Virus record (IMG/VR): IMGVR_UViG_3300042383_000213
Coordinates: 1 to 39,222 of that record
Direction: 5' to 3' (one strand)
Origin: a virus
Length of the DNA stretch: 39,222 bases
The notes below the pieces were generated by a model. That model searched no databases. It had not been told where the DNA came from and saw nothing but the letters and a program-made list of their open reading frames with translations. The translations under genes were made by a program, and so were the position numbers. How positions within the stretch are numbered: the stretch's first letter is position 1; the number at the start of each line of letters is the position of its first letter. Positions 23,306 through 39,222 of this stretch are shown one piece after another.

Positions 23306-23678
23306 ATTCGATCCTCTTCATCTTGCTGAGAGCTTCGATCCTTCGGCGTCGTCCTTCGCTGTTCGGCGGAAATTCACCGATCTGCATAAGTATCGACGCT
23401 TGCTCCCGCTTTTCCTTCAAATATGGTAGCAGAAGGGAGCACAATTCGATTGCATTCTGGCTGTAAATGTTCCACTCGAACGCAGATCTTGCAGTCCCGT
23501 TGCCGACAAAGACCTGACTTACGGATCCCCCGAAGGTGTGCTGCAACCAACGTAGAACATGCGGATAAGTCGTCTTTACTGAGACGCGGGCGGTTCTTGA
23601 CCATCGAAAGCATCCTTCCCCATCAATGAATCCTGCTGCATATGCAAGATCAATGTGTCTCGGCCCAATTCCGTCCAA
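23295..23678 (-). CDS. LAGLIDADG homing endonuclease
   Basis: The core motif LAYAAGFIDGEGCF is a clear LAGLIDADG signature, followed by beta-rich DNA-binding sequence (RVSVKTTYPHVLRWLQHTFG) and a C-terminal basic helix. One motif means it would act as a dimer. Such enzymes cut a specific allele and copy themselves into it. It overlaps the polymerase 3' end. The open frame begins at 23771, but the TTG at 23678, just before the domain, is a plausible start; an ATG at 23765 is an alternative. It looks free-standing, since the polymerase C terminus is intact. Confidence 0.85.
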   Translation of the reverse strand: MDGIGPRHIDLAYAAGFIDGEGCFRWSRTARVSVKTTYPHVLRWLQHTFGGSVSQVFVGNGTARSAFEWNIYSQNAIELCSLLLPYLKEKREQASILMQIGEFPPNSEGRRRRIEALSKMKRIEYGS

Positions 23679-25371
23679 TCTTGTACTCGCCTGAGAGTGG
23701 GCATCGGAACTTGAATTGACGCCCCGCTTCTCGGATCGCTTCGACCGCAATGCGACCAACCTCATCGGCAATTTCCTTCTTGCAATCGTATTGGATTTCG
23801 TCGTGGATGTGCGCCACCTGACGCACGACTAGACCGCGCTTCTTGAACTGCTCCGCGGCAATGATCGTCGCCTTCTTGACCAGAAGAGCACCCGCCGATT
23901 GCAGTAGGGTGTTCAGGGCAAGATGCTTAGACCTGATGTGAAGCTTCCTGTTGTCCAGACCGTTCAGATAAGCACGACGCTGCAAGGTGAGATCAATCCG
24001 GCTGCGAAGCAGCTTGATTGCCGGGAATCGACGGAAGAAGTCGTCCTTGAGCTTCGCACCCCTCTTTGACCCGCCGCCGACGATGGAGCCGAGCTTCGTA
24101 TTCCCTGCGCCGTAGATCAGCGCATAGATGAACGTCTTAGCCTGATTCCTCGTCTCCAGACCCGCCGCCTTCTGGTTCTCGGTGTGAACGTCTCCCTCGC
24201 ACACGAGCTTCGCGTACTGCCCATCGTCGTACTGAGCCATGAAGTGCGCTAGGCAGCGAAGCTCCAGACCGGACGCATCAACACCAACGAGGACGTTGCC
24301 GGGAGACGCCGTGAACAAAGAACGGCACTCAGAGCCGTATGGGCTTCCGACACGGGGAACTTGCGCCATGTTCGGGTTGGAATGTGAGCACCTACCCGTC
24401 ACCGTACCGTTCGTGTTGACACGCCCGTGGATCTTGCCACCCTTCTCCAACTTGATCCAAGCGTTGTCTCCGTTAGCGATCTGCCCAAGCCGCTTGTCAA
24501 CCAACAAGTACTCGGAAAGAAGCTTCGCTTCGGGGTAGTCCAGAGCAGCGAGAACTGACTCGTCAACCTGAGGGCGACCGCTGTCGGTAAACTTGTCTGG
24601 CTTCCATCCGTACTTTTCGATCAGACCGTCAGAGATGTGAAGTCTGCTAGCGGGGTTGAACGGGATGATCTTCTGCTTCGTCTTGAGCTGCACGATCCGG
24701 GCAGGGAACATCGTCTTGAGCTGCGCTTCAATCTCAAGCTTCCGGCTAGTGAGGCTTGTCATGAGCTGCTTTGCGCCCTCGACGTTGAAGCAGAATCCGT
24801 TCCGCTCCTGTTCGATGATCACTTCTGCGAACGAATGCTCCAGTAGGAACGAATCCTCTGCGAATGCTTCGCGGACAATCGCGTCATGAAGATGGCGAGT
24901 GACAACAACGTCGTTGCAGCAATAGTCGAGCATCTCCGGAGAGAACGACTCAAAGCTCCCTGTTTCATTGAAGTCTCCCTTGAGGACACCTAGCCTGTGT
25001 CCCCACGCCTTCAGGCTGTGGCTTCCCGCCATCTTTGACGGAAAGTCGGTGCGAATCAAATCCTGAGTGATGATCTCGGGCCAGACGAGCCGTGAAGCAA
25101 CGAGCGTGTCGAAGGACTGCTTCGGGATAAACCCGAAGACGTTCTTGAGCACAGGAAGGTCGAACCTGAGGATGTTGTGACCAATCACTACATCCGCCTC
25201 CTTCAGCAGCTCAATCGCCTTGTCGAGGCGATCTGGGCCGAAACCCTCTGGTCTATCTCCGTTCATGGAGACGCTGATGCAATGCACGGTTTGGAAGTCG
25301 CTCAGGTTGAGCCAATCCTTGCCGTAATTCGTTTCAATGTCAAAGTAAGCAACGTGTCCGAGGTGGTTCAT
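23650..25371 (-). CDS. DNA polymerase, family A with 3'-5' exonuclease (T7 gp5-like)
   Basis: The 573-aa enzyme has an exonuclease domain with AYFDIET (residues 8-14), IGHNILRFD and DYCCNDVVV. It also has polymerase motifs A (VGVDASGLELR), B (RNQAKTFIYALIYGAG) and C (HIHDEIQ). The residue equivalent to E. coli Pol I Phe762 is Tyr. The C terminus KIGRNWAETH aligns with the T7 end, so the gene is complete. It is shorter than T7 gp5 (704 aa). AGGAGG before the ATG at 25371 fixes the start. Confidence 0.97.
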   Translation of the reverse strand: MNHLGHVAYFDIETNYGKDWLNLSDFQTVHCISVSMNGDRPEGFGPDRLDKAIELLKEADVVIGHNILRFDLPVLKNVFGFIPKQSFDTLVASRLVWPEIITQDLIRTDFPSKMAGSHSLKAWGHRLGVLKGDFNETGSFESFSPEMLDYCCNDVVVTRHLHDAIVREAFAEDSFLLEHSFAEVIIEQERNGFCFNVEGAKQLMTSLTSRKLEIEAQLKTMFPARIVQLKTKQKIIPFNPASRLHISDGLIEKYGWKPDKFTDSGRPQVDESVLAALDYPEAKLLSEYLLVDKRLGQIANGDNAWIKLEKGGKIHGRVNTNGTVTGRCSHSNPNMAQVPRVGSPYGSECRSLFTASPGNVLVGVDASGLELRCLAHFMAQYDDGQYAKLVCEGDVHTENQKAAGLETRNQAKTFIYALIYGAGNTKLGSIVGGGSKRGAKLKDDFFRRFPAIKLLRSRIDLTLQRRAYLNGLDNRKLHIRSKHLALNTLLQSAGALLVKKATIIAAEQFKKRGLVVRQVAHIHDEIQYDCKKEIADEVGRIAVEAIREAGRQFKFRCPLSGEYKIGRNWAETH

Positions 25372-29235: not shown

Positions 29236-29338
29236 TGGTTTCTCCTAAGTGTCTAGCGAATGACTGAGGGTAGTACACACTACACTTCACTAATCATTCT
29301 AAGTTGCCTAAGGGTTTACATTAGTAAACTAGACTTTC
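29236..29338 (-). promoter_or_regulatory. Intergenic region between RNA polymerase and SSB genes
   Basis: A 103-bp gene-free stretch with a GTTTAC palindrome and a minus-strand segment with repeated AGTG/GTGT steps before CTACCCTC. In T7-like genomes phage RNA polymerase promoters precede this gene class, so one is expected here. I cannot identify a consensus. Confidence 0.35.
29314..29329. repeat. GTTTAC-N4-GTAAAC palindrome after the RNA polymerase gene
   Basis: Perfect arms, loop ATTA on the plus strand. It lies 10 bp beyond the RNA polymerase stop, 79 bp before the SSB start, and has no ribosome-site loop. Confidence 0.85.
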
Positions 29339-31732
29339 TTAAGAGAAGTAATAGTCACTCTTAAGTACGTCTTGGATATCCAAGGTTCCCTTAGGTGGAA
29401 CAGGGGGGAATTCTACAGACTTCGGGAGGAGCGCGGAGATCTGGGAGGCGAAATCTTCCAGAATTTCTTCACTAAATAGCTTCACCGTTGCTTCCCTCAC
29501 GCAGGAAGACATAATTCCCGCATCTGAGGCCAAGACCGCAATTTCATCGTGCGTAGGACGGATGCTGCTGACGTTGTTTGCAACAGCCATGTTCACAGTC
29601 ATGCCGAGCAGCCCACCCAATCCGTCGAGTCCGTGGACGAAGTTGGGTGCAATCGCGTTCTTCGTCTTGCGGGAGTCGAGTTTACCGTTGGATACCCGAA
29701 GCTGATGCTGACGAATCTTTCGTCCGATTGCGGTCTTGACGTTGATCGCGTCGGTCTGCTCGTACCGCATGTCGATAAGAAACCCATTTGGAGTCCACCA
29801 AGTCGGTGAAACTTTGTGCTCCATGCACAGGTTTGCAACATCCTGAAGCCATTCCATGCAAACACGGGCAGACTTCACGACCTCTCCGATCGACTCCCAA
29901 ATGACTGAGGCCAAGAAAGCGCATGGCTTGTACGTCTCCTCGTTGAACGGATTCGTCTTGCCGTTCTTCTTGATCTGCTCGTAGAACCATTCTGTCGTGT
30001 AACTGCGGCAGCTGAAGAACGTGCTTCCATAGGGCAGAGTCATCGTCTGCCGCTTCGTCGTCTTCCTGTCGATGCCGAATGCAAGCCATTTCGCAGCGTA
30101 AGGATCCGTGGACTCCGAGAGCTTCTGCTTCACGACATCCGCAACCTGACCATAGATGTCGTTCGGTGCTTCACGAGGCAAGCAGTTCGTCGCCATGCCG
30201 CCGACAGGATCACGAAGCAGGAGGCTGTAGATCTGTAGCCCCTGCGTCGTAGCGTCCATAGACACCGGAAGGCGGCTCTCGTAGCCGAAGCCGACACGGC
30301 GGAACATGTTCCACTCAACGCAAGCTGCGAGGAACTGAAGCGGCTTGTCTGCTGACGCCCAATCCGTGATGTCCTTCGGGTACTGACCAATGCTCCGGAT
30401 CCAATCGTCGTTGTCCTTGACCCACTTGATGCGCTGATCAAACGGCAGCTTGTCGTTGCCGTAAGTGTTCGCAACGTGAATCGCAAGCCACGCCGCATCG
30501 CTGTCATCACGAATCGGCTTGCCCTGATCAAACAGCAGGAGGCTCTTCGAGATATCCGGCCCCTGTGGCTGCAAGTAATACGGGATCGGATACTCGCGCC
30601 CGCGGAAGTCCAACTGCCTCGGATACCAGATCCGCTGTCCCTTGAACTTGTCCGCTAGGTACAGGATCTTCGCGACCTGAAGACGCTTCGACTGCTGACG
30701 CTCGTTCTCGAAGTGAGCACGAGCGGCGTCCTTCCGCCATTGGCGTCGAGACTCCTGATTCGTGTCGATGTCCCTCGGCTTCGTCGGGAGCAGCAGTTCG
30801 CCGTTGTTCGGGATGCCTTCGATGTTGAGCCCGTTATCCCAACAATGCTGCACGACATCAAGAAGCGGCTCGTTGATTCGATACGCAGTCCGCTGCAATG
30901 CGTTGATCGCTGAGTACACGTTCGGCATACCGACGTTCTCAAGCGTCTGCATGTAGTTCTTCGTGCGGTGCTTGATGAGTGGACGGTTCCGATGGAAGAT
31001 CATTCCATACCCGCCATTAGCGGGCTTCTTCCAATCAAGCGGAGTTTCGACCATCGGCAAGTACACGGGGCGAAGAATCTCTCCGGACTTGTGCGCGTTC
31101 TTGAGCCATGCCATCAAGTCATCGGTTGGCCTGACAAGTGTGACGGACTTGCCCATGATGTTCGTCCGGGTGACGATGTCGATGATCCCGGTTGATTCCC
31201 GCATGAGCTCAATGCACACGAGCCCAACCTGAACCATGTCCTTCTTGTCCCAAGACGGAGGAACGACCCCAACGGATCGTGCGGAGTTCTTCAGGAACTT
31301 AGCCTTGCGGCTGTAACTAGCCCCGCTGTTGAGGACTCGGTTCGCCGCTTGCCACAGGGGCTGATGCTCCTCCTTGAGGAATCGGAACTGAACCTCATCC
31401 TGCAACAGCCGAGCAACCTGAGTCGCGGTGCTGACAATCTTCCGGTTCTGACTGATGCAGTCCAACACAGCCTGAGCCGTAATCGCCGCTGTCATCGCGG
31501 TCGGCAGCTGCGTCAGGTACTCATAAGCACGGTGACGCCGTCCCGGCTTCTTTTCTGCGTTGCTAATCCAAGACTTGATCGACTTGTCCAACCGCCCGAC
31601 GCACTCGCTCAAGAGGCGTTGACCTACGTCAGTCGTGCTCTCAAGACCTAGCTCCTTAGCCTTGTTGACACGGTTCCAGTAGCGACTCTTGCCGAGAGTC
31701 TCCATCTCTTGATTGACCTTGCGTTGATCCAT
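29339..31732 (-). CDS. Single-subunit DNA-dependent RNA polymerase (T7 gp1-like)
   Basis: This 797-aa enzyme transcribes middle and late genes. Catalytic blocks align with T7: RLPVSMDATTQGLQ (Asp537 region), KRQTMTLPYGS (Lys631 and Tyr639), and RPTHDEIAV (His811-Asp812). The end LKSDYYFS resembles the T7 foot. It is somewhat shorter than T7 RNA polymerase (883 aa). Start: ATG with GGAGG 4 nt upstream. The gene lies after an intrinsic terminator, so it is reached by read-through or an unidentified promoter. Confidence 0.97.
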   Translation of the reverse strand: MDQRKVNQEMETLGKSRYWNRVNKAKELGLESTTDVGQRLLSECVGRLDKSIKSWISNAEKKPGRRHRAYEYLTQLPTAMTAAITAQAVLDCISQNRKIVSTATQVARLLQDEVQFRFLKEEHQPLWQAANRVLNSGASYSRKAKFLKNSARSVGVVPPSWDKKDMVQVGLVCIELMRESTGIIDIVTRTNIMGKSVTLVRPTDDLMAWLKNAHKSGEILRPVYLPMVETPLDWKKPANGGYGMIFHRNRPLIKHRTKNYMQTLENVGMPNVYSAINALQRTAYRINEPLLDVVQHCWDNGLNIEGIPNNGELLLPTKPRDIDTNQESRRQWRKDAARAHFENERQQSKRLQVAKILYLADKFKGQRIWYPRQLDFRGREYPIPYYLQPQGPDISKSLLLFDQGKPIRDDSDAAWLAIHVANTYGNDKLPFDQRIKWVKDNDDWIRSIGQYPKDITDWASADKPLQFLAACVEWNMFRRVGFGYESRLPVSMDATTQGLQIYSLLLRDPVGGMATNCLPREAPNDIYGQVADVVKQKLSESTDPYAAKWLAFGIDRKTTKRQTMTLPYGSTFFSCRSYTTEWFYEQIKKNGKTNPFNEETYKPCAFLASVIWESIGEVVKSARVCMEWLQDVANLCMEHKVSPTWWTPNGFLIDMRYEQTDAINVKTAIGRKIRQHQLRVSNGKLDSRKTKNAIAPNFVHGLDGLGGLLGMTVNMAVANNVSSIRPTHDEIAVLASDAGIMSSCVREATVKLFSEEILEDFASQISALLPKSVEFPPVPPKGTLDIQDVLKSDYYFS

Positions 31733-31757
31733 AGATCCTCCGTTTAAGGAGTATACG

Positions 31758-31773
31758 GTTTACATGTGTAAAC
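31758..31773. repeat. GTTTAC-N4-GTAAAC palindrome upstream of RNA polymerase
   Basis: Perfect 16-bp site (loop ATGT), extended by flanking G and C to 18 bp. It lies between the terminator and the RNA polymerase ribosome site, where a bound protein or RNA hairpin could control polymerase expression. Confidence 0.88.
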
Positions 31774-31777
31774 CATA

Positions 31778-31818
31778 GCAAAAGAAAAGCTCCCGCCCTG
31801 CCGAAGCAAGACGGGAGC
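31778..31818 (-). terminator. Intrinsic terminator before the RNA polymerase gene
   Basis: On the minus strand GCTCCCG pairs with CGGGAGC around a TTCG-containing inner hairpin, followed by TTTTCTTTT. It closes the early transcript after the DUF932-like gene. RNA polymerase lies downstream of it, so termination here would limit polymerase synthesis. Confidence 0.92.
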
Positions 31819-31870
31819 CGCTCACAGGAGGAAACCGAGTTCAGTATAACAACTGCTCGGTTCCCTGAAG

Positions 31871-32683
31871 TCACAGAATCGCTGCGAGTTCCTCCGGAGT
31901 CTCGTTCTCAAGAGCGAACTCCTTCTTGAGCAGACTGTGCAGACGACCGTAACGGTCAGCGGACGCGAACATGGAGCGACCGCGGTTGTACGAGGTGAAG
32001 GCGTTGTACAGCGACCACAGGTTGCGCTCCTTGAACTCGTTGTGCTCGGGGGTCTTCCAATGCTTGTAGACCTCCAAGATTCCGGAGCCGGGGATGACCT
32101 CCTGCCGCGCAGCTTCCACGAGAACGTGGTCGATCAGGCGGTCGTCGGTCATGTTGACCTCGCGAGTCGCGTACTCCTCGAACATGTCACGGATCGCCCA
32201 AGCACGGCGACTAGTAGTCAGGACGGAGTGCATGACGAACTCGTCCAGACGGTCGAACACGTTGAGCGTGTGCCGGGTCTTGAGCTTGACCTCCGCGCTA
32301 AACATGCCGTTCGTGCAGATCCGAACCTCCGTACCGACGCCCGTACTGACGGCGCGGGACTTGTTGTAGGAGTTTAGGATGCCCGCCGTGTAGCCGAATT
32401 CCGCGTTGACGCCGTTGATCTTCAGGTCATCGCGGGTGATGCCGACGACGCTCACGAACTGCGCCTTGTTAGTCCAATGCACGGGGTCGGACAACTGGAA
32501 TCCGGCTTGCTGCATTGCGTCAGCCCACATGGAGAACAGGGTGTCCTGCGGGACGGGGACGTAGCTGTCGGTGCGGGCGGGAAGCGGGATCTTACGGATC
32601 TCGTCCAACGTGCTGTAGGCTTCTCCCCACTTGCGGTTGGTGTAGGTTGCGGGACGGTTCGGGTTGCTAGCAGAGACGATCAT
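31871..32683 (-). CDS. DUF932-like phage/plasmid protein, 270 aa
   Basis: The middle part (ILNSYNKSRAVSTGVGTEVRICTNGMF, then KTRHTLNVFDRLDEF) matches the pattern of DUF932 proteins of phages and plasmids (SYDKSxA, CxNxM, RHT). Biochemical function is unknown. The ATG at 32683 with AAGGA upstream is chosen over the longer open frame at 32740. It is the last gene before the early terminator, so it belongs to the same early unit as the repeat protein upstream. Confidence 0.65.
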   Translation of the reverse strand: MIVSASNPNRPATYTNRKWGEAYSTLDEIRKIPLPARTDSYVPVPQDTLFSMWADAMQQAGFQLSDPVHWTNKAQFVSVVGITRDDLKINGVNAEFGYTAGILNSYNKSRAVSTGVGTEVRICTNGMFSAEVKLKTRHTLNVFDRLDEFVMHSVLTTSRRAWAIRDMFEEYATREVNMTDDRLIDHVLVEAARQEVIPGSGILEVYKHWKTPEHNEFKERNLWSLYNAFTSYNRGRSMFASADRYGRLHSLLKKEFALENETPEELAAIL

Positions 32684-32750
32684 TGCAGTTCCTTGTGAAA
32701 GAGGTTTCGATCCTGCGCGTTGTGTGTATGCGCGCCCCACAGGTAGGACT

Positions 32751-32766
32751 GTTTACAGATGTAAAC
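32751..32766. repeat. GTTTAC-N4-GTAAAC palindrome
   Basis: Perfect site, loop AGAT, directly abutting the stop of the nonapeptide-repeat gene and 68 bp upstream of the DUF932-like start. Confidence 0.87.
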
Positions 32767-33426
32767 TCAGCGGCTAGCGACGGAGGTCGCTTCGACATAA
32801 GCCTTGCAGAAGGCGTGGACGAAGTGGGACATGCCGTCCGGGTTCGTGGACAGCCACTTGGCGAACTCGCGGGCAACGACCTCGTCGTTGACCTCGACAT
32901 GCCGAGCGACCTCCTCAAGGTCGAGCTCCGACGCGATCTCGGAGACAGACAGGCAATCCGCGACGCGACGGGCGTCGAGCTCGGAAGCAACGTCGCTACA
33001 GTCGATCTCGCGGGCGATCTCCCGATCGCTGAAATGCTCCGCGATCTCGGCTGCGTCGAATTTGTTCGCGAGATGATCAGCAAGGTCGGACATGTCGATC
33101 TCGCGGGCAATCTCGCCCGTGTCGATCTCCTGAGCGAGGGCAGACATGTCGATACGCTCTGCAACGTCTTGCATATCCAGCTCGACTTGCTCAGCGACCT
33201 TGGCGGCGAAGCTGTCGCCCCCGGTGTCGATGATGCTGTTGACGAGGGGGTCGCCGTGGTTGTCGATGATCTGCTTGGCGACATGCTCAGCCAGATCCGG
33301 GGAGAACGTCGGGAGCGGGGCGTCGAGCATTGCCTGCTCTTGCATCGTCGGCAAGAACACTTGCTTGAGCTGAGCGACGACTTCGTTCGGGATCGTGATG
33401 CTGACGTTAGTAAGGTCGAGTGGCAT
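32767..33426 (-). CDS. Acidic early protein with tandem nine-residue repeats, 219 aa
   Basis: Residues about 84-185 consist of some eleven tandem units, mostly nine residues long, with consensus D-x-S-E-[IVL]-A-x-E-[IL]. Examples are DMQDVAERI, DMSALAQEI, DTGEIAREI, DCSDVASEL and DLEEVARHV; one unit is longer (DMSDLADHLANKF). The protein is strongly acidic and has no known enzymatic motif. A rod-like or DNA-mimic fold, as in other early host-takeover proteins, is speculation. Ribosome site: AGGAG before ATG. It is the first gene after promoter P5. Confidence 0.8.
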   Translation of the reverse strand: MPLDLTNVSITIPNEVVAQLKQVFLPTMQEQAMLDAPLPTFSPDLAEHVAKQIIDNHGDPLVNSIIDTGGDSFAAKVAEQVELDMQDVAERIDMSALAQEIDTGEIAREIDMSDLADHLANKFDAAEIAEHFSDREIAREIDCSDVASELDARRVADCLSVSEIASELDLEEVARHVEVNDEVVAREFAKWLSTNPDGMSHFVHAFCKAYVEATSVASR

Positions 33427-33448
33427 GGTTCTACTCCTGTGAGAGGCG

Positions 33449-33464
33449 GTTTACACTTGTAAAC
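33449..33464. repeat. GTTTAC-N4-GTAAAC palindrome in the P5 leader
   Basis: Perfect site, loop ACTT, 46 bp downstream of the P5 -10 element and 23 bp before the repeat-protein start. Confidence 0.88.
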
Positions 33465-33509
33465 CTGATTTAGTGAGTGCCGCAGGAACGCTCCTTTGGC
33501 GATAAGTGA

Positions 33510-33538
33510 ATGGTAACACAAACGGGTTGTTATGTCAA
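33510..33538 (-). promoter_or_regulatory. Early sigma70-type promoter P5
   Basis: Minus-strand -35 TTGACA (33538-33533), 17-bp spacer, -10 TACCAT (33515-33510). It overlaps the stop of the upstream 70-aa gene and drives the repeat-protein and DUF932-like genes. Confidence 0.82.
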
Positions 33539-33539
33539 G

Positions 33540-33752
33540 TCATTTATTCCGATTCTTCATCGCGTCAAGACGCTTGTGCAGATCGGAAACCTTGTCAATG
33601 TATGCGTCCTCCTCTGGCGAGAGCCAATACTGTGGGTGAGCTCGAATAGTCCGGATGAACGGTATCGTCTTGTGAATAAGACCGGGGGTTGTTGCGAGTC
33701 GAACGATTCTTCGGATGCAATCCGTGACGATCATTGTCGAAGACTTGTGCAT
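33540..33752 (-). CDS. Hypothetical protein, 70 aa
   Basis: A basic protein with a hydrophobic-basic N-terminal half (MIVTDCIRRIVRLATTPGLI) and a C-terminal helix rich in Asp, Lys and Arg. No family is recognised. GAGG lies 12 nt before ATG, which is rather far; an ATG six codons later is an alternative start. It is the last gene of the P4 unit, and no terminator separates it from P5. Confidence 0.5.
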   Translation of the reverse strand: MHKSSTMIVTDCIRRIVRLATTPGLIHKTIPFIRTIRAHPQYWLSPEEDAYIDKVSDLHKRLDAMKNRNK

Positions 33753-33766
33753 TTAATCAGCTTACC

Positions 33767-34480
33767 TCAATGCAGCGGGTAGTCAACGTTCATGACATCG
33801 GGTGACCAACACGCACGGCAGTCGCCGCACTTGCCGCCCTGCGTGTACGCAACGCATTGGAATCCTGCGTTCGCGCCCACAGACGAAGTGTGCTTGCTGA
33901 TCATGTTCTTGAGCGGAGCACCAACCATCGGTGCGCTGAGCCGAATGATCAGGTTGCCGGGGATCTCCCGCCGCAGCCGTACCGCGCCGACGAAAGTGAC
34001 TTCGCGAGTCGGGAGCCAGAAGCGAACGTCGGGCATCGCGCGGGCGATCTCAACGATCACGTTCAGGTGATTGATCCCGAGCAGATCGCCGCTGTCGTGC
34101 CACCGGAAGTAGCGGTTGCCCGTCTTCCGGATCGACTTGATCATGCCCGCTGCCCACATCGACGGGTTCTGCCGAAGCTTCGACAGACGACGCTCGTGAG
34201 CCGCTTCGACGTTCGGGAAGACGTATCGACCCTTGAGTGCGTAGCAGTTGCTGCACACGCTGCCGGGAGTCTCGCGGAGCTTGCTGCCCGTGCGGCAGAT
34301 CTTCGCGCTGATCGACCAAGAGTGACACGGCATCTTGGAGGGGGACGACAAGCCTCCGGTGATCGAATCAAGCTGAGCCCAAGTCGGATTGTCGGGGAGC
34401 TGACGCAGATCGTGGTCGATGCTCGTCGGATCCGTCCAACGAACGTCGTTCGCGTTTGGTTTCAGTACTGTGAGTTGCAT
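33767..34480 (-). CDS. GP88-like cysteine-rich phage protein, 237 aa
   Basis: Residues about 45-85 contain SKMPCHSWSISAKICRTGS then CSNCYALKGRY, and RYFRWHDSGDLLG follows around 120. A second cysteine cluster near the C terminus reads CVAYTQGGKCGDCRAC. This pattern resembles the phage gene product 88 family, whose function is unknown; the cysteines could hold a metal or Fe-S cluster. It begins directly after an SD-bearing GTTTAC palindrome (34483-34498). Confidence 0.7.
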   Translation of the reverse strand: MQLTVLKPNANDVRWTDPTSIDHDLRQLPDNPTWAQLDSITGGLSSPSKMPCHSWSISAKICRTGSKLRETPGSVCSNCYALKGRYVFPNVEAAHERRLSKLRQNPSMWAAGMIKSIRKTGNRYFRWHDSGDLLGINHLNVIVEIARAMPDVRFWLPTREVTFVGAVRLRREIPGNLIIRLSAPMVGAPLKNMISKHTSSVGANAGFQCVAYTQGGKCGDCRACWSPDVMNVDYPLH

Positions 34481-34482
34481 TG

Positions 34483-34498
34483 GTTTACTCCTGTAAAC
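34483..34498 (-). repeat. SD-bearing GTTTAC palindrome before the GP88-like gene
   Basis: On the minus strand GTTTAC-AGGA-GTAAAC lies 2 nt before ATG, so AGGAG both forms the loop edge and serves as ribosome binding site. Confidence 0.92.
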
Positions 34499-34501
34499 TG
34501 A

Positions 34502-34606
34502 CTAGTCGTCGTTGCCTGTGAGGTATGTGTAGAGGCAGTAGATGCCGCCTATGACGATGAACGCGAGGTACAGCAACGCTGCTGAATCAAGGATGCGCCT
34601 GAACAT
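34502..34606 (-). CDS. 34-residue membrane peptide
   Basis: The ATG at 34606 overlaps the stop of the upstream gene (TGATG). The product is MFRRILDSAALLY, then a hydrophobic helix to about residue 27 and LTGNDD. It is predicted to be a single-pass inner membrane peptide expressed early; function unknown. The open frame continues upstream, but that part is a shadow of the neighbouring gene. Confidence 0.6.
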   Translation of the reverse strand: MFRRILDSAALLYLAFIVIGGIYCLYTYLTGNDD

Positions 34607-34941
34607 CAAGCATCGCCGCCCTGCTGCGTCTGCTCCATACGCTTGATACGGCGGTCGATCTCCCGGCGGGCGTCCTCGTACTTGCTGCGGACTTCGATCC
34701 AACCGCGGCGTTCCTTCATGCTTGCTCCGCACGACAGGATGTCGCCCTGCGCGTAGAACTTCGGCAGGAACTCGTTAGCGAGGTCGGCAAGACCCGCCAT
34801 CCTGTACAGCTCGACCATGAGCCCTGCGACATCTGCGTCGTTGCTCCGTAGCCCTGCGACGAGAATCGGGACGACACCAGACCACGTTGGCGTGATGTCG
34901 ATGTATTTAGTCGGCTCCGTGACTGACGTTGGCTCTGACAT
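34606..34941 (-). CDS. Hypothetical early protein, 111 aa
   Basis: A mostly helical protein with a charged C-terminal coil (RSKYEDARREIDRRIKRMEQ). No family is recognised. It is the first gene after promoter P4 and is preceded by an SD-bearing GTTTAC palindrome 2 nt before its ATG. Small early proteins of T7-like phages commonly target host functions, but nothing in the sequence shows which. Confidence 0.7.
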   Translation of the reverse strand: MSEPTSVTEPTKYIDITPTWSGVVPILVAGLRSNDADVAGLMVELYRMAGLADLANEFLPKFYAQGDILSCGASMKERRGWIEVRSKYEDARREIDRRIKRMEQTQQGGDA

Positions 34942-34943
34942 TG

Positions 34944-34959
34944 GTTTACTCCTGTAAAC
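34944..34959 (-). repeat. SD-bearing GTTTAC palindrome, first gene of P4 unit
   Basis: GTTTAC-AGGA-GTAAAC on the minus strand, 2 nt before the ATG at 34941 and 38 bp downstream of the P4 -10 element. Confidence 0.92.
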
Positions 34960-34970
34960 TTGGCGTCGGG

Positions 34971-34992
34971 CGAGGACGTTCCTCGACCGTGA
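34971..34992 (-). promoter_or_regulatory. P4 leader hairpin, identical to the P2 leader
   Basis: A 22-nt block identical to 37820-37841. It holds the hairpin CGAGGA-ACG-TCCTCG (minus strand), beginning near the predicted transcript start, likely a 5' stabiliser or regulator binding site. Confidence 0.75.
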
Positions 34993-34996
34993 CTAA

Positions 34997-35025
34997 ATCG
35001 TATCATAAATGAGCTAATTTGTCAA
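34997..35025 (-). promoter_or_regulatory. Early sigma70-type promoter P4
   Basis: Minus-strand -35 TTGACA (35025-35020), 17-bp spacer, -10 TACGAT (35002-34997). It drives the genes from 34941 leftwards. Confidence 0.85.
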
Positions 35026-35124
35026 GTGCTGCGGGCTGTAAGAATAAAGTGCTACAGTTTCTTACAAGTGTAGTAGTTACGCCCCAAAACACTTACGGTC
35101 GCCGCGATTCGCTGTCATCGTTGC

Positions 35125-35173
35125 TTTCGTTTGCCAAAACGTATACAAACAGGCTAACTAACGGCAAACGAAA
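35125..35173. repeat. 11-bp perfect inverted repeat upstream of P4
   Basis: TTTCGTTTGCC (35125-35135) and GGCAAACGAAA (35163-35173) flank a 27-nt loop that contains AACGTATAC. The second arm runs into the U-tract of the P3-unit terminator, so the two structures may compete or form a composite terminator. A GCTGTCATC motif lies just beside it (35111-35119). Confidence 0.65.
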
Positions 35174-35205
35174 ACCCCCCGGTGGCTCCGTAGCACACCG
35201 AGGGG
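35170..35205 (-). terminator. Intrinsic terminator of the P3 unit
   Basis: Minus strand: CCCCTCGGTG pairs with CACCGGGGG around an 11-nt loop, followed by TTTT. It lies just past the GTTTAC palindrome that follows the last gene of this unit. Confidence 0.9.
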
Positions 35206-35212
35206 AAGGTAG

Positions 35213-35228
35213 GTTTACAGTTGTAAAC
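35213..35228. repeat. GTTTAC-N4-GTAAAC palindrome between stop and terminator
   Basis: Perfect site, loop AGTT, 3 bp after the stop of the 139-aa gene. No gene starts behind it. Confidence 0.87.
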
Positions 35229-35231
35229 TAG

Positions 35232-35651
35232 TCACCACCACGAGTCGTAGTACAACGCCCACCCGTGGTCAAGAATGTCCATCGCTCGGCTGACAAACGC
35301 GGCGTCTTCGGCTTTCATGGATGGGTCGGAATGACCGAAGAAGAAGCCAGAAGTAGCCGGAAGACGGTCGTTTCGCAGATCGTCGATCAGCTCTGACAAG
35401 TCCTCACGGTGCAGACGGACGCTCACGCAGTTGAAGTCGCCGTCGCCGCCGCGGCTGCGGTAGAGACGCTCCATCCACCCGTGGAGGTTCGGGTGCTTCC
35501 TCCAGTACATCACGGGGAACCGCGGGTTGTCCAGAAGGTAGAGCTTCACGACATCCTCCGGTGCATCCTCCGCGATCCGGGGGTGCGTGTAGCCGATGTC
35601 GGGAAGGTCGCCCGTGTCACGGACGGCGTAGCAGTATTGGTCGAGTCCCAT
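35232..35651 (-). CDS. Conserved phage protein with YWRKHxNLHGWM motif, 139 aa
   Basis: The blocks MGLDQY, YWRKHPNLHGWMERLY, DFNCVSVRL, LPATSGFFFG and the end LYYDSWW form a pattern I recognise from many phage and some bacterial proteins, often mislabelled as phosphoglycerate kinase. The real function is unknown. It is the last gene of the P3 unit, preceded by an SD-bearing palindrome. Confidence 0.75.
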   Translation of the reverse strand: MGLDQYCYAVRDTGDLPDIGYTHPRIAEDAPEDVVKLYLLDNPRFPVMYWRKHPNLHGWMERLYRSRGGDGDFNCVSVRLHREDLSELIDDLRNDRLPATSGFFFGHSDPSMKAEDAAFVSRAMDILDHGWALYYDSWW

Positions 35652-35655
35652 TGTT

Positions 35656-35671
35656 GTTTACTCCTGTAAAC
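35656..35671 (-). repeat. SD-bearing GTTTAC palindrome before the 139-aa gene
   Basis: GTTTAC-AGGA-GTAAAC on the minus strand, 4 nt before the ATG at 35651. Confidence 0.92.
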
Positions 35672-35674
35672 TTG

Positions 35675-36151
35675 TTAGTCGATGATCCGGTCGGTTTCCG
35701 GGTTGTACACGAAGCAGCCGAAACGGTCGTCGCCTTCAGGCGCGACGATGTTCTTGAGGTAAGAGTCGAGAGACGCAGCAGCCTCCTCCGAGCACATCAA
35801 CGGCGGGAGGTTGACCGTGTTGAATCCGCTGTCCGCGGTCAGGATCGCGTTCCCGTGCAGGGAATTGCGGCTGATGAGGGACGCCCGCTCGTTGAAGACG
35901 GGGTTGTCCTTCATGAGCCCGCACTCGTCCACCCACAGGATCATATGGGCGGCTCCGGGAATCTCCTCGCCATCAGGGAGGCGGACACGCTCGACTGTGT
36001 CGCACCCGTTGCCGATCAGCGGGTACATGGACTTGAGCGCAGACCACTCCGTCTTGGAGAAGAACTCCAACTTGAGCGTCTTGAGCTGAATCGGCTCCTT
36101 GATGTTCGCGGGGATGAGGTAGCAGAGAACTTCATTCTTCGGGTCGATCAT
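35675..36151 (-). CDS. DUF3846-like protein, 158 aa
   Basis: The segments KTLKLEFFSKTEWSALKSMYPLIG, ILWVDECGLMKDNPVFNERASLI and LHGNAILT follow the DUF3846 pattern (a 'vDE.Gl..n.p.N..As.l' stretch followed by 'i.G.vvl'). Such proteins are common in phages and plasmids and have no known function. The ATG is preceded by an SD-bearing palindrome. Confidence 0.65.
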   Translation of the reverse strand: MIDPKNEVLCYLIPANIKEPIQLKTLKLEFFSKTEWSALKSMYPLIGNGCDTVERVRLPDGEEIPGAAHMILWVDECGLMKDNPVFNERASLISRNSLHGNAILTADSGFNTVNLPPLMCSEEAAASLDSYLKNIVAPEGDDRFGCFVYNPETDRIID

Positions 36152-36153
36152 TG

Positions 36154-36169
36154 GTTTACTCCTGTAAAC
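36154..36169 (-). repeat. SD-bearing GTTTAC palindrome before the DUF3846-like gene
   Basis: GTTTAC-AGGA-GTAAAC on the minus strand, 2 nt before the ATG at 36151. Confidence 0.92.
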
Positions 36170-36172
36170 TGG

Positions 36173-36400
36173 TCAGTCGTTGTTGATGAATGCGTTGAAC
36201 GCGGTGTACGCTTGCTTCTCTGACGAGAACACGGGCGTGTCGATGACGCTAGCGCGAGTGTCGTTCGGGGATTGCTCCTTGACGTAACTAGCGAATCCGA
36301 GGGCAGACTTCTTGCTGCTGAAGATGAATGCCATCTGGGGCAGCGGCAGGGGCTGACCGTCGTCATGCTCCACGAATACGGTGTAGACCTTACTTGCCAT
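36173..36400 (-). CDS. Hypothetical early protein, 75 aa
   Basis: The ATG at 36400, inside the end of the upstream gene, fits AGGGG upstream and the domain-like start MASKVYTVFVEHDD. The product has alternating strands and two similar segments, FSSKKSALGFASYV and FSSEKQAYTAFNAFI, which may be a short internal duplication. No family is recognised. It is one of the few early genes without its own GTTTAC palindrome, because it overlaps its neighbour. Confidence 0.65.
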   Translation of the reverse strand: MASKVYTVFVEHDDGQPLPLPQMAFIFSSKKSALGFASYVKEQSPNDTRASVIDTPVFSSEKQAYTAFNAFINND

Positions 36401-36614
36401 TCGGGAACCCCTGCGCTTCGGCAATCGCGTCTGCGAGTTGGGACAGATCCGGGCGGTGATCCGGCTGAACGCACGGCTCCTCGTTGAACGTCAGCGTGAA
36501 GTAGCCGTCGAGCTCGTGCGCTTCCACGAGGGACTGAAGGGTGTCGCACAACTGCTCGTACCGCTTGTGCTCCCCCTTCACCGGGATCTCCAAGTACATC
36601 GTTACTCGTGCCAT
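36390..36614 (-). CDS. Hypothetical early protein, 74 aa
   Basis: The sequence alternates strand and helix (MARVTMYLEIPVKGEHKRYEQL, then YFTLTFNEEPC). It looks like a small alpha/beta domain but no family is recognised. It is the first gene after promoter P3, with an SD-bearing palindrome 2 nt before ATG. Confidence 0.68.
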   Translation of the reverse strand: MARVTMYLEIPVKGEHKRYEQLCDTLQSLVEAHELDGYFTLTFNEEPCVQPDHRPDLSQLADAIAEAQGFPNGK

Positions 36615-36616
36615 CG

Positions 36617-36632
36617 GTTTACTCCTGTAAAC
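36617..36632 (-). repeat. SD-bearing GTTTAC palindrome, first gene of P3 unit
   Basis: GTTTAC-AGGA-GTAAAC on the minus strand, 2 nt before ATG and 45 bp downstream of the P3 -10 element. A leader hairpin lies between (36647-36669). Confidence 0.92.
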
Positions 36633-36676
36633 TCGTGCCTACCTTTGCGACGGAGACGATCCCCGACGCTGAACAT

Positions 36677-36705
36677 ATTGTAACCTAAACGGGGCGTCCT
36701 GTCAA
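36677..36705 (-). promoter_or_regulatory. Early sigma70-type promoter P3
   Basis: Minus-strand -35 TTGACA (36705-36700), 17-bp spacer, -10 TACAAT (36682-36677), five of six consensus bases. Confidence 0.88.
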
Positions 36706-36764
36706 GCCCGTAATGCAATCCCCCGTGCGACCGCTGTCATCACGGCGTATGCACGGCGTGTCAA

Positions 36765-36801
36765 CGAAAAAACCCCCCGGTCAGCCGAAGCTGCCGAGGG
36801 G
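36765..36801 (-). terminator. Intrinsic terminator of the P2 unit
   Basis: Minus strand: CCCCTCGGCAGC-TTCG-GCTGACCGGGGG with a six-base T run. It is 30 bp after the last gene of the P2 unit. Confidence 0.93.
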
Positions 36802-36815
36802 CGCAGAAAGGACGA

Positions 36816-36831
36816 GTTTACTCCTGTAAAC
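36816..36831. repeat. GTTTAC palindrome with SD loop but no downstream gene
   Basis: Same AGGA-loop version as the gene-start sites, but it touches the stop codon of the 110-aa gene and is followed by a terminator rather than an ATG. It suggests the element has a role apart from translation, or marks a lost gene. Confidence 0.9.
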
Positions 36832-37163
36832 TACTTGATGACGCCCATGTCCTTCAAGACGGTCATGAACGTACCCTGAAGATCGACCTCATCCGGACAG
36901 GTGATCTCCACCGTGAAACAGGCGATGTACGCGCCCGCCTTCGGCTCAAGGATGTCATCCAAGTAGCACAGGATCGAAGATCCTTCGTACCCCGGATAGA
37001 TCTTCCACAGCGGGATCTGGCGCATGAACGCCATGTGCATATCCTCGCTGAAGACGGTCGCGAAGTCCTCCGGGGAAACCCCCCCGTCACCGAAGACGTT
37101 GGAGAGGTCGTAATCGGTGAACCCGAACTCGCAGTCACAGACGGCAGTTTGCATCTTCGTCAT
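36831..37163 (-). CDS. Hypothetical early protein, 110 aa
   Basis: An acidic protein with several aromatic and Cys residues (VCDCEFGFTDYDL, LCYLDDILEPKAGAYIACFTVEITC), probably alpha/beta. No family is recognised. It is the third and last gene of the P2 unit; its start has an SD-bearing palindrome and its stop touches another. Confidence 0.68.
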   Translation of the reverse strand: MTKMQTAVCDCEFGFTDYDLSNVFGDGGVSPEDFATVFSEDMHMAFMRQIPLWKIYPGYEGSSILCYLDDILEPKAGAYIACFTVEITCPDEVDLQGTFMTVLKDMGVIK

Positions 37164-37165
37164 TG

Positions 37166-37181
37166 GTTTACTCCTGTAAAC
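37166..37181 (-). repeat. SD-bearing GTTTAC palindrome before the 110-aa gene
   Basis: GTTTAC-AGGA-GTAAAC on the minus strand, 2 nt before ATG. Confidence 0.92.
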
Positions 37182-37184
37182 TGG

Positions 37185-37553
37185 TTAGAGGCGGCTGCAC
37201 TCAATCGCTGAAGCGATCTCGTCAAACGACAGACCGTCAATGTCATTCATCTGGGAAACGGACGAGAATCCTCCGGGCAGCAAGATGGCAGGATCCTCCG
37301 CTTCAAGCCCCGCCCACTCACGGACGAGCGGCGGCAGCGTAGCACCGTACCCCAAGAAACGGAACTGGTTCTCGTTCTCGTCCTGCTCCCACGGTGCATT
37401 GTCCCCGACATCACCCCTGTAGAGTTCGCAGAGGACGCCGAGGGCGCAGTAACAGAGCCCGAGGCTGTCCCGGCGGGCGAGAGCACCCCATGTCTGTTCA
37501 AACTCGCCGGAACGGAGAGCACCGATCCACATCTGCTTGATTCGCTTGTTCAT
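37185..37553 (-). CDS. Conserved small protein of unknown function, 122 aa
   Basis: The layout KQMWIGALRSGEFEQTWGAL, CYCALGVLCELY, LPPLVREWAGLE and SQMNDIDGLSFDEIASAIE matches a family seen in phages and bacteria (W..ALRSG.Y.Q....L......CCLGVLC.L......L...V..W.G). No function is known. It is in the P2 early unit behind an SD-bearing palindrome. Confidence 0.72.
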   Translation of the reverse strand: MNKRIKQMWIGALRSGEFEQTWGALARRDSLGLCYCALGVLCELYRGDVGDNAPWEQDENENQFRFLGYGATLPPLVREWAGLEAEDPAILLPGGFSSVSQMNDIDGLSFDEIASAIECSRL

Positions 37554-37555
37554 TG

Positions 37556-37571
37556 GTTTACTCCTGTAAAC
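37556..37571 (-). repeat. SD-bearing GTTTAC palindrome before the 122-aa gene
   Basis: GTTTAC-AGGA-GTAAAC on the minus strand, 2 nt before ATG. Confidence 0.92.
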
Positions 37572-37574
37572 TGG

Positions 37575-37781
37575 TTAGCCGATACCCATACCCTGACGGC
37601 ACTCCGGGCAGACACCGTTCGTCGTGCAAGGATCGACGATGCCGCAGCACTCGCAAGTGACCGCAGCACAGCGTTCGATGAGACGATCCGCAGCAGCCTG
37701 AAGCAGCGCGTCAGCCTCCTTGCGGGCGACATCCTGACGGAGGCGAACGGAATCGTGACGACCTTCCCACTTGATTGCCAT
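37575..37781 (-). CDS. Small zinc-ribbon-like protein, 68 aa
   Basis: The N-terminal half is a helical Arg/Asp/Ala stretch. The C-terminal half has CECCG followed by CPECRQG, a four-cysteine pattern that could bind zinc. It may be a nucleic acid- or protein-binding adaptor. First gene after promoter P2, preceded by an SD-bearing palindrome with the ATG 4 nt away. Confidence 0.68.
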   Translation of the reverse strand: MAIKWEGRHDSVRLRQDVARKEADALLQAAADRLIERCAAVTCECCGIVDPCTTNGVCPECRQGMGIG

Positions 37782-37785
37782 AACG

Positions 37786-37801
37786 GTTTACTCCTGTAAA
37801 C
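37786..37801 (-). repeat. SD-bearing GTTTAC palindrome, first gene of P2 unit
   Basis: GTTTAC-AGGA-GTAAAC on the minus strand, 4 nt before ATG and 45 bp downstream of the P2 -10 element. Confidence 0.92.
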
Positions 37802-37819
37802 TGTCCTTCCTGCGTGAGC

Positions 37820-37841
37820 CGAGGACGTTCCTCGACCGTGA
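37820..37841 (-). promoter_or_regulatory. P2 leader hairpin, identical to the P4 leader
   Basis: A 22-nt block identical to 34971-34992, containing CGAGGA-ACG-TCCTCG on the minus strand, just downstream of the -10 element. Confidence 0.75.
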
Positions 37842-37845
37842 GTGA

Positions 37846-37874
37846 ATTGTAACACAATCTGACCCTCCTGTCAA
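37846..37874 (-). promoter_or_regulatory. Early sigma70-type promoter P2
   Basis: Minus-strand -35 TTGACA (37874-37869), 17-bp spacer, -10 TACAAT (37851-37846). Confidence 0.9.
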
Positions 37875-37931
37875 GTCGATTGACTCTGACTGACGCTGAC
37901 TGACCCCGCGCCCCGCGCTGTCATCACCCCG

Positions 37932-37947
37932 GTTTACACGAGTAAAC
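37932..37947. repeat. GTTTAC-N4-GTAAAC palindrome upstream of P2
   Basis: Perfect site, loop ACGA, 58 bp upstream of the P2 -35 element in gene-free DNA. It cannot act in translation. Confidence 0.88.
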
Positions 37948-38060
37948 CGAGGTCGAGCCGCGACCTGATCCAACGGCGACGGCGGTGACCCTGACCCCGA
38001 TTCGCTGTCATCACCCGCCACCCGCGGGCGACGCGCGACCCCCCGAAAGTCCGGAAACAA

Positions 38061-38095
38061 TAAAGCCCCCACCCACGGTTTCCCGTGGGCAGGGG
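38061..38095 (-). terminator. Intrinsic terminator of the P1 unit
   Basis: Minus strand: CCCCTGCCCACGGG pairs with CCGTGGGTGGGGG around a short loop, then CTTTATTGTTT. It ends transcription after the single gene of the first unit. Confidence 0.88.
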
Positions 38096-38100
38096 CGGCG

Positions 38101-38116
38101 GTTTACACTTGTAAAC
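38101..38116. repeat. GTTTAC-N4-GTAAAC palindrome between stop and terminator
   Basis: Perfect site, loop ACTT, 3 bp after the first gene's stop and just before its terminator. Confidence 0.87.
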
Positions 38117-38119
38117 CGA

Positions 38120-38812
38120 TCACTTCGCGGCGGTCGCGCAGTACCCTTCCGCGAGCCCGACCGCCCCGCGCAGGGCGTCCAGTAGGCGGGCGGCGGTTTC
38201 CGGCGTCGTGTCGCGCCGGGCGAGGGCGGCGGTCACCATATCCCCGATGGCGTCCGCGAGGGCGGCGGCGGTCACCGCGCTCTTCCGTCCGCTCTTCGTG
38301 CTACCCTCTTCGGCATCGTCCGCGCCATCGTCCGATCCGGTCGCGGCGGGCTTCGCGGGCTTCGCGGTCGCCGCCTCAACGTCCGCTCGCTTCAACGTCC
38401 GGACGAACGCCTCGCGCGTCTCCACGTTGGAAGCCTTCCACAAAGCCTGAACGGCGCGAGCGTCCGTCTCGCAGCGAATCAGGTGCGGAACGTCCGCGCC
38501 CGTGACGCGCTCCTCCGCGTCGATCCAAGCCCCGTAGGTGACGTACTGCGAGAACCGTCCCTTCGAGGCGAGGAGCCCGCATTCCGCGACCGCCCAAGCG
38601 AACGCGCCCTTCCCGGACGCGCCCGTCCACTTGGACGCCTCGCCGTGGACGGTCGCAGCGTAGAACGCAACCGCCATTTCGCGCACGGCGTCCGCGCCCT
38701 TCGCAACCGCCGCCCGCATCGTTTCCGTGAACGCCCCGAACCCCATAGCGGTCATGCGGTCGGCGTCGGTCATGCGGGCGGGCTTCGTGCTCTTCGTGCT
38801 CTTCGTTGCCAT
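38120..38812 (-). CDS. First early protein, 230 aa, function unknown
   Basis: The first gene transcribed on entry. It starts with a Lys/Thr/Ser-rich stretch (MATKSTKSTKPAR), then a helical domain rich in Ala with FTETMRAAVAKGADAV and YGAWIDAEERV. A low-complexity Asp/Ala/Gly linker follows (about 155-175), then a C-terminal Ala-rich helical part. The coding DNA is noticeably more GC-rich than its neighbours, suggesting a different origin. AGGTAGGAAA precedes ATG; the GTTTAC palindrome is 44 bp further upstream rather than at the ribosome site. No family is recognised. Confidence 0.75.
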   Translation of the reverse strand: MATKSTKSTKPARMTDADRMTAMGFGAFTETMRAAVAKGADAVREMAVAFYAATVHGEASKWTGASGKGAFAWAVAECGLLASKGRFSQYVTYGAWIDAEERVTGADVPHLIRCETDARAVQALWKASNVETREAFVRTLKRADVEAATAKPAKPAATGSDDGADDAEEGSTKSGRKSAVTAAALADAIGDMVTAALARRDTTPETAARLLDALRGAVGLAEGYCATAAK

Positions 38813-38855
38813 TGTGGTTTCCTACCTTTGTGTCCGCGTTCCGTTCGCTTGCCGC

Positions 38856-38871
38856 GTTTACTCGTGTAAAC
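38856..38871. repeat. GTTTAC-N4-GTAAAC palindrome in the P1 leader
   Basis: Perfect site, loop TCGT, 34 bp downstream of the P1 -10 element and 44 bp before the first gene. Confidence 0.88.
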
Positions 38872-38904: not shown

Positions 38905-38933
38905 AGTATCGCACAATTCGGGCGTCCGGTCAA
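38905..38933 (-). promoter_or_regulatory. Early sigma70-type promoter P1
   Basis: Minus-strand -35 TTGACC (38933-38928), 17-bp spacer, -10 GATACT (38910-38905). It is the first promoter next to the genome end and drives the 230-aa gene. The -10 is weaker than that of P2 or P3. Confidence 0.78.
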
Positions 38934-38946: not shown

Positions 38947-38962
38947 GTTTACACGCCTAAAC
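38947..38962. repeat. Imperfect GTTTAC palindrome upstream of P1
   Basis: GTTTAC-ACGC-CTAAAC, one mismatch, 14 bp upstream of the P1 -35 element. Confidence 0.7.
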
Positions 38963-39011: not shown

Positions 39012-39116
39012 CCGATAACCCTAGGTGACCGATAACCCGCGCCCCTCGCATCCCGTCCGATAACCACCGGAAACCGGAGAGTCCGATAACCCCTACGGGG
39101 CGGGCGTCCGATAACC
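39012..39116. repeat. Five direct CCGATAACC repeats (iteron-like)
   Basis: Exact CCGATAACC at 39012, 39029, 39057, 39083 and 39108 (spacing 17, 28, 26, 25), three of them preceded by GT. A partial inverted copy (TTATCGGAC) lies at 38974-38982. Repeats spaced near multiples of a helical turn suggest protein binding: replication initiator, terminase or host factor. Which one is not shown. Confidence 0.8.
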
Positions 39117-39222
39117 GCGGTCACCCTAACGGACACCTAACGAGCCCCCCTTGGGGGGTGCGGGCGCGCGTCAATCAATCAAACCCTTCTCAGATTTTTT
39201 CACCAAATAGTCGCAACTCAGG
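39096..39222. repeat. Terminal direct repeat, right copy
   Basis: Identical to positions 1-127. Joining the two ends gives a circle of about 39,095 bp and restores the metallopeptidase gene. Confidence 0.95.
39190..39222 (-). CDS. Partial copy of the metallopeptidase 3' end
   Basis: These 33 bases repeat the last codons and stop of the gene at 95-481 (ending LRLFGEKI). It is incomplete because the window ends here and represents the same gene after circularisation. Confidence 0.85.
   Translation of the reverse strand, partial: PELRLFGEKI

Follow-up and report, generated by a model that had tools for sequence, protein, structure and literature searches.

The 39,222-nucleotide stretch analysed here, called the window and covering IMG/VR virus record IMGVR_UViG_3300042383_000213 from position 1 to 39,222, holds a T7-like phage genome in which one short palindrome, GTTTAC-N4-GTAAAC (N being any base), recurs through the early region. 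It carries an exact direct terminal repeat of 127 bp (1-127 and 39096-39222), consistent with either a complete genome or a circularised assembly. The early genes run from the right end down to the phage RNA polymerase gene (29339-31732, minus strand, 797 amino acids), with replication and then structural genes beyond, and the open reading frames together with the relatives give the T7 order of RNA polymerase, single-stranded DNA-binding protein, primase/helicase, polymerase, exonuclease, portal, scaffold, capsid and tail. The RNA polymerase was identified by tblastn as the T7-type single-subunit enzyme; its best identity among public phages is 37%, and megablast found no close public relatives. 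Related genomes and contigs are designated below by handles (G001, L021 and the like), the window phage itself being G000.

Eighteen exact copies of the palindrome are present in the window against none in 100 dinucleotide shuffles, which bears out the count and the positions given in the initial annotation. Seventeen of them lie within 29314-38871, and the remaining one, at 19689, is inside the scaffold gene. All eight centres listed in that annotation recur here, but the list was incomplete, the scaffold-site centre CTGT being missing. As the genes are on the minus strand, the plus-strand centre TCCT reads AGGA in the coding sense, and centres are given below as read on the coding strand. 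AGGA is found in 9 of the 18 sites, the others having ACGA, AAGT (twice), TCGT, AACT, ATCT, ACAT, TAAT and ACAG. Although the early region is 85.5% coding, all 17 early sites (spread over 9.6 kb) fall in gene gaps, nine of them with a stop codon no more than 3 nucleotides (nt) away. At eight of the nine AGGA sites, an ATG begins 2-4 nt beyond the palindrome, and AGGAG stands inside the palindrome at ribosome-binding distance; in other words, the Shine-Dalgarno sequence sits inside the operator at these eight sites.

All the features described in this paragraph are on the minus strand and are taken from the right end, the promoter positions being matches to the sigma70 consensus only. A copy with one mismatch (GTTTAG-GCGT-GTAAAC, 38947-38962), already reported upstream of the first promoter and found there, lies just upstream of a putative sigma70-type promoter (TTGACC-17-GATACT, 38905-38933), and the ACGA site (38856-38871) stands on the other side, 43 nt upstream of the first early gene, so that this weaker promoter is flanked by two candidate operators. 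The first early gene (38120-38812) encodes a 230-residue protein, win_02, which is our candidate regulator. It is followed, 3 nt past its stop codon and ahead of a terminator-like hairpin, by an AAGT site (38101-38116), and then by an intergenic TCGT site (37932-37947) upstream of the putative promoter TTGACA-17-TACAAT (37846-37874). Three AGGA sites with an embedded Shine-Dalgarno sequence come next: 37786-37801 (4 nt before the ATG at 37781), 37556-37571 (2 nt before 37553) and 37166-37181 (2 nt before 37163). The ninth AGGA site (36816-36831) has no downstream start codon; it is the one gap site that overlaps a stop codon, by that codon's last base, and a terminator-like hairpin follows. 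A second TTGACA-17-TACAAT match (36677-36705) precedes the embedded sites at 36617-36632 (2 nt before the ATG at 36614), 36154-36169 (2 nt before 36151) and 35656-35671 (4 nt before 35651), this mini-operon ending with an AACT site (35213-35228) 3 nt past a stop codon. The putative promoter TTGACA-17-TACGAT (34997-35025) is followed by the last two embedded sites, 34944-34959 (2 nt before the ATG at 34941) and 34483-34498 (2 nt before 34480, in front of a GP88-family gene). Downstream of TTGACA-17-TACCAT (33510-33538), an AAGT site (33449-33464) lies 22 nt before the ATG at 33426, with a separate Shine-Dalgarno sequence, ACAGGAG, downstream of it, and an ATCT site (32751-32766) immediately follows a stop codon. 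Thus four promoters combine TTGACA, a 17-bp spacer and a -10-like box, and at each of them a site is placed about 40-45 bp downstream of the -10 box (AGGA at three, AAGT at the promoter starting at 33538).

Sites also lie on both sides of the RNA polymerase gene. The ACAT site (31758-31773) is 25 nt upstream of its ATG and 2 bp upstream of a TATACT/TATAAT -10-like box, a distance shared by the window, G001 and G002; this box is a good one without a -35 at the canonical distance. The TAAT site (29314-29329) lies 9 nt past the stop codon and has the centres TGAT, TGAG or TACG in relatives. Only the ACAG site (19689-19704) is within a gene, where it is read in the codons TTT ACA CAG GTA AAC. The pattern TTT ACN NNN GTA AAC is kept in 5/5 related genomes having the site, and both of its rare codons are kept with it (in the window GTA makes up 5% of valine and TTT 15% of phenylalanine codons); G008 and G011 have a similar peptide, RFTQA, at this position and no exact site.

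Comparison with relatives indicates which part of the palindrome is constrained. Between the window and G001, orthologous sites differ at 0/192 arm positions against 5/28 positions of the non-AGGA centres (Fisher p=2e-5), and between the window and G002 at 3/120 against 14/20 (p=4e-12), these p-values being a guide only because the compared sites share descent. AGGA centres show no substitution in either comparison (0/36 and 0/20). The arms are therefore under selection and the non-AGGA centres are free to drift. Exact sites were counted in G001 (16), G002 (14), G003 (11), G004 (7), G010 (5), L021 (4), G009 (3) and others. A de novo palindrome count combined with pattern scans, from which site types were assigned, gave one main palindrome type per genome. 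The dominant palindrome has the core TTTAC..GTAAA in G002, G003, G011, G013 and L021; G011 has twelve [CG]TTTAC-N5-GTAAA[CG] and G013 eleven TTTACCRTGGTAAA, and G008, whose RNA polymerase is 55% identical, has the related set GTNTACC..GGTANAC. L021 combines three GTTTAC-CCGG-GTAAAC with four GTTTAC-TAGGA-GTAAAC, the latter at ribosome-binding sites, and G003 adds to its N4 sites three with N6, of which one covers the regulator gene's ribosome-binding site. In G008, G011 and G013 the palindrome has a separate ribosome-binding site further downstream, and the embedded Shine-Dalgarno sequence is therefore peculiar to that side of the family to which the window belongs. All 7 distinct genomes (window, G002, L021, G003, G008, G011 and G013) have a site ahead of the first early gene, the nearest being 5-172 nt upstream and the G002 copy having one mismatch, and in 11/11 records checked, covering every lineage examined, the RNA polymerase gene has a site 13-54 nt upstream.

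No relative was found that keeps the genes and promoters and lacks the palindromes: exact sites or the same or shifted sets (G008, G011, G013 and G016) were present, and the sole complete relative without sites, G012, which has terminal repeats and no dominant palindrome, is without the candidate protein as well. No dominant palindrome was seen in the parts read of HTVC168P, LUZ100 (26.7 kb) and Pasto. The degenerate pattern was unmatched in the fragments G014 and G015, which hold part of the RNA polymerase gene only and nothing upstream of it. Among viral contigs searched for exact GTTTACAGGAGTAAAC, GTTTACNAGGAGTAAAC and GTTTACCATGGTAAAC, true clusters were confined to the relatives and to G017, and we estimate that most contigs with a single match are at chance level. 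Separately, two tandem GTTTACCAG[GCA]AGTAAAC sites (N5), 31 bp apart, were noticed in the unrelated G018 and G019 (L104 and L105), at the end of an HNH-like gene and before the packaging genes.

The degenerate sets indicate that the unit read is double-stranded DNA and not an RNA hairpin. Indeed, the half-sites GTTTAC, GTATAC and GTCTAC combine freely in G008 and G016, and 8/19 sites of these two genomes would mispair as an RNA stem; on these sequences, half-sites vary independently, which a dimer on duplex DNA allows and an RNA stem would not. The proposal that the palindromes are operators of a dimeric protein is therefore supported, by the fixed arms and free centres, by the G008 half-sites and by the sites before the first gene and the RNA polymerase gene.

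The initial annotation had found no visible repressor, which is probably wrong, a good candidate being available in the first early gene. Homologues of its product were found in G002 (44% identity), L021 (42-43%) and G003 (32-34%), in G011 (E 3e-11) and in G008 (E 0.0095, by a profile built without G008), the last with a conserved KGRVSQLV; the window protein has an HTH-like SKGRFSQYVT core. The family is present in all 7 distinct genomes, always at the same genomic place, and its seven members share an invariant W, RxSQ, A and ExxAR; it was undetected in the complete relative G012. Searches with the sequence against PDB, Pfam, PHROGs and a phage collection gave no match. An AlphaFold2 model of the core is nearly all helical (predicted local distance difference test, pLDDT, 92.7; predicted template modelling score, pTM, 0.87). 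With VIA-align, the KorB-operator structure 1r71 (Z 4.5, 4.2 A, 97 residues) and the ParB-parS structure 6s6h (Z 4.5) come second and third behind Raf1 (6.5), 8qa9 scores Z 3.3, and the full-length model gives Z 5.5 with Spo0J 1vz0. No N-terminal CTP-binding (cytidine triphosphate) ParB domain was found: the helical model has no room for one upstream of the helix-turn-helix (HTH)-like part, and Pfam gave no match. From the model, we read the first-gene product as having an HTH-like DNA-binding core of uncertain family; the helical family to which it belongs would be a new one, with RxSQ in its HTH-like core and a distant similarity to KorB and ParB.

The reading we favour, with modest confidence, is one in which a dimeric repressor made by the phage, most probably the product of the first early gene, acts through double-stranded DNA operators to hold back its own gene, the early mini-operons and the gene for RNA polymerase. 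We infer that the first-gene product is the binder of the sites, that binding means repression, and the timing. If T7 biology is a guide, the region spanned by the sites is the one that the host RNA polymerase would be expected to transcribe. In this scheme, the host enzyme would transcribe the early region from several sigma70 promoters, and the first-gene product would accumulate and bind the operators as a dimer. Operators around its own promoter would provide negative feedback on initiation at the first early gene, and the one beside the -10 box of the RNA polymerase gene, the main inferred target, would limit the phage enzyme at initiation. The mini-operon sites about 40-45 bp past the -10 box and the junction sites would prevent initiation or halt elongation, the mini-operons being repressed at or just after initiation and the junction sites serving as roadblocks. 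Early transcription would in this way be shut off or held off, which amounts to early shut-off and may extend to immunity or dormancy. In the short gaps (about 21-23 nt), AGGAG would be placed in the centre, as the four central bases are free, and operator and ribosome-binding site would be united in one 16-bp element. A bolder version, to which we give a small chance, is that a T7-like clade without integrase encodes a global repressor of a new HTH family, distantly resembling the DNA-binding portion of KorB/ParB. This repressor could silence the early region as a whole, the RNA polymerase gene included, and keep the genome as a dormant or immune episome, and operators doubling as ribosome-binding sites would gate the start of both transcription and translation. 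The earlier statement that no integrase is present agrees with our scan, in which neither a tyrosine (PF00589) nor a serine (PF00239) recombinase was detected in the window phage and six relatives, and an integrated prophage is unlikely because these seven records have no integrase. When a genome collection was scanned for prophages or hosts by means of the RNA polymerase alignment, 57 pattern matches and no relative were obtained.

Several observations weigh against a phage repressor of this kind. Spacing is variable, with N4 and N5 in L021 and N4 and N6 in G003, which is odd for a rigid dimer. The co-occurrence of family and sites rests on one clade and one negative genome, and the membership of G013 is marginal by sequence (E about 0.01). 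The likeness to KorB and ParB is weak, Z 4.5 being within the chance range for helical models; Foldseek against PDB and BFVD gave no significant match and Pfam no relevant one, and a profile comparison with R751 KorB was null, the score falling within shuffles. Finally, the early region of G017 (contig positions 16186-26310; L102 and L103) has five exact and three one-mismatch GTTTAC-N5-GTAAAC sites, and the candidate family was undetected there.

G017 also supports a host transcription factor as the reader of the operators; the phage would then have borrowed a host operator for timing or restraining early gene expression, and the first gene would have another function. Its head and terminase genes are unrelated to those of the window phage, and 4/5 of its exact sites carry AAGGAG before a start codon, so that a similar dispersed set with embedded Shine-Dalgarno sequences exists without the candidate protein; either a host protein reads the half-site or another regulator has converged on it. 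A host binder is for this reason possible, and the weak structural support for the HTH reading of the candidate also favours it. On the other side, the operator type shifts with phage lineage (GTTTAC-N4, GTNTACC..GGTANAC, [CG]TTTAC-N5-GTAAA[CG]), a family member with a changing RxSQ core accompanies each type, and family and sites are jointly absent in G012; host factors could also differ between lineages. We hold this explanation to be unlikely overall.

An RNA element, in which a 6-bp hairpin GUUUAC/GUAAAC would expose AGGA in its loop for recognition by ribosomes or by a translational repressor that binds RNA, is disfavoured and very improbable. It would account for the Shine-Dalgarno sequence in the would-be loop just before the ATG at 8/18 sites, relatives have loops of 4, 5 and 6 nt, and an AGGA site folds at -3.4 kcal/mol. 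Yet GUAUACCAUGGUAGAC does not fold, the mispaired sites of G008 and G016 fold hardly or not at all, no compensatory arm changes were seen in the window clade, Rfam gave no match for the element, and nine sites are without AGGA, several lying after stop codons, beside a promoter or inside coding sequence. This reading was rejected as the main one on the independent half-site variation and on the sites far from start codons. An activator, recruiting RNA polymerase or blocking termination at early genes, would suit the RNA polymerase gene, where a site is directly upstream of a -10 box lacking a canonical -35; however, the strong TTGACA-17-TACAAT promoters have their sites downstream, and the overlap with ribosome-binding sites and the positions after stop codons suit blocking better, which makes activation hardly probable. 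Least probable of all are boundary sequences, identical 16-24 bp junctions for homologous recombination of early-gene cassettes with no protein reader: the junctions between small genes do carry sites, whose flanks (cca...caATG) are often identical, and the slots taken by win_05 and win_07 in the window differ from those of their L021 homologues, but flanks are less conserved than arms, sites away from cassette junctions (RNA polymerase promoter region, scaffold interior) keep the arms only, and the degenerate G008 sites are unsuited to such recombination.

The phage-repressor reading can be set beside known systems, among which stoperators, SPBRE/MrpR and KorB/OB are nearest in layout. Stoperators of L5-type (Cluster A) mycobacteriophages are 20-30 copies of a short sequence in promoters and short gene gaps, and the motif varies between relatives together with the repressor (PMC6550527, PMC9283540). 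The window likewise has many copies, above chance, of one short site in promoters and gene gaps, and site type and candidate regulator change together across genomes, as a correlation only. The resemblance proposed in the initial annotation thus holds for layout and not for symmetry, as each L5 site is an asymmetric 13-mer recognised by a monomeric repressor (PMC9283540). Furthermore, those sites are oriented with transcription and spread genome-wide in temperate mycobacteriophages, whereas the window sites are perfect 6+6 palindromes nearly confined to a T7-like early region, and eight contain a ribosome-binding site. In the Bacillus prophage SPbeta, the repeated intergenic element SPBRE is bound by one master repressor, MrpR (PMC10516654). 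MrpR has a tyrosine-recombinase fold; our candidate differs in being small, all-helical and built around an HTH-like core. The plasmid operator OB has the consensus TTTAGC-S-GCTAAA, and R751 has nine OB sites in 50 kb. KorB of IncP plasmids (RK2, R751) is a global repressor reading this dispersed palindrome (PMC11790492). Both palindromes are dispersed with TTTA arms, and the HTH-like part of the candidate weakly resembles KorB/ParB DNA-binding domains, but the candidate has no CTP-binding N-terminal domain, no partition partner was seen, and there is no sequence match to R751 KorB. The nearest T7-like phages with proposed repressor control are those of the LUZ100 group, which combine temperate features and an integrase with a MarR-like regulator proposed to act as repressor of the RNA polymerase gene (PMC10134795). 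The window phage shares the T7 layout and T7-type RNA polymerase; it differs in having no integrase and, in contrast to the part of LUZ100 read, a dominant palindrome, and no MarR match was obtained among the early proteins scanned (Pfam and PHROGs, covering part of the window open reading frames). None of PMC9283540, PMC6550527, PMC10516654, PMC11790492 and PMC10134795 describes symmetric sites with an internal Shine-Dalgarno sequence in the early region of a T7-like phage. Literature searches on palindrome operators in Autographiviridae and on T7-like prophage repressors or inverted repeats, incomplete in coverage, returned nothing relevant. Because relatives keep the same or a shifted site together with the candidate protein as first early gene, our results point to a repressor-operator circuit of a type undescribed for T7-like phages in the literature so searched.

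T7-like phages are the textbook of strictly lytic development driven by RNA polymerase. If the proposed circuit exists, development in a T7-like clade would be subject to braking or dormancy control that does without an integrase. The lineage shifts of the site would offer a natural series of a repressor and about 18 operators changing together, and the Shine-Dalgarno sequence inside an operator a compact regulatory part. With one small protein and one 16-bp site, the system is small enough for direct testing.

Other elements were observed in the window. A second dispersed element, GATGACAGCG, occurs seven times against 0.19 expected (38003-38012, 37916-37925, 36732-36741, 35110-35119, 31487-31496, 30499-30508 on the minus strand and 18892-18901 on the plus strand), four copies being in gaps upstream of early sigma70-like promoters. 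GGTTATCGG also occurs seven times (0.2 expected), at 39012-39116 and at 13-21 and 1890-1898 (minus strand); five copies cluster at the right end, ahead of the first promoter, and the motif resembles half a DnaA box (TTATC). The leaders of three early mini-operons (34963-35008, 36643-36688 and 37812-37857) share a repeat with 61-83% identity, in which a hairpin, CGAGGAACGTCCTCG, stands ahead of the AGGA operator and is possibly a 5' RNA-stability element. Two HNH-type endonuclease genes matched PHROGs (23295-23771 and 930-1154, minus strand), the former adjoining the DNA polymerase gene. Finally, 32767-33426 (minus strand) encodes an acidic 219-residue protein made of repeats (EIDxxDVAxEID), with counterparts in G003 and, by position, in G008 and G011, which could be a DNA mimic or an anti-defence protein.

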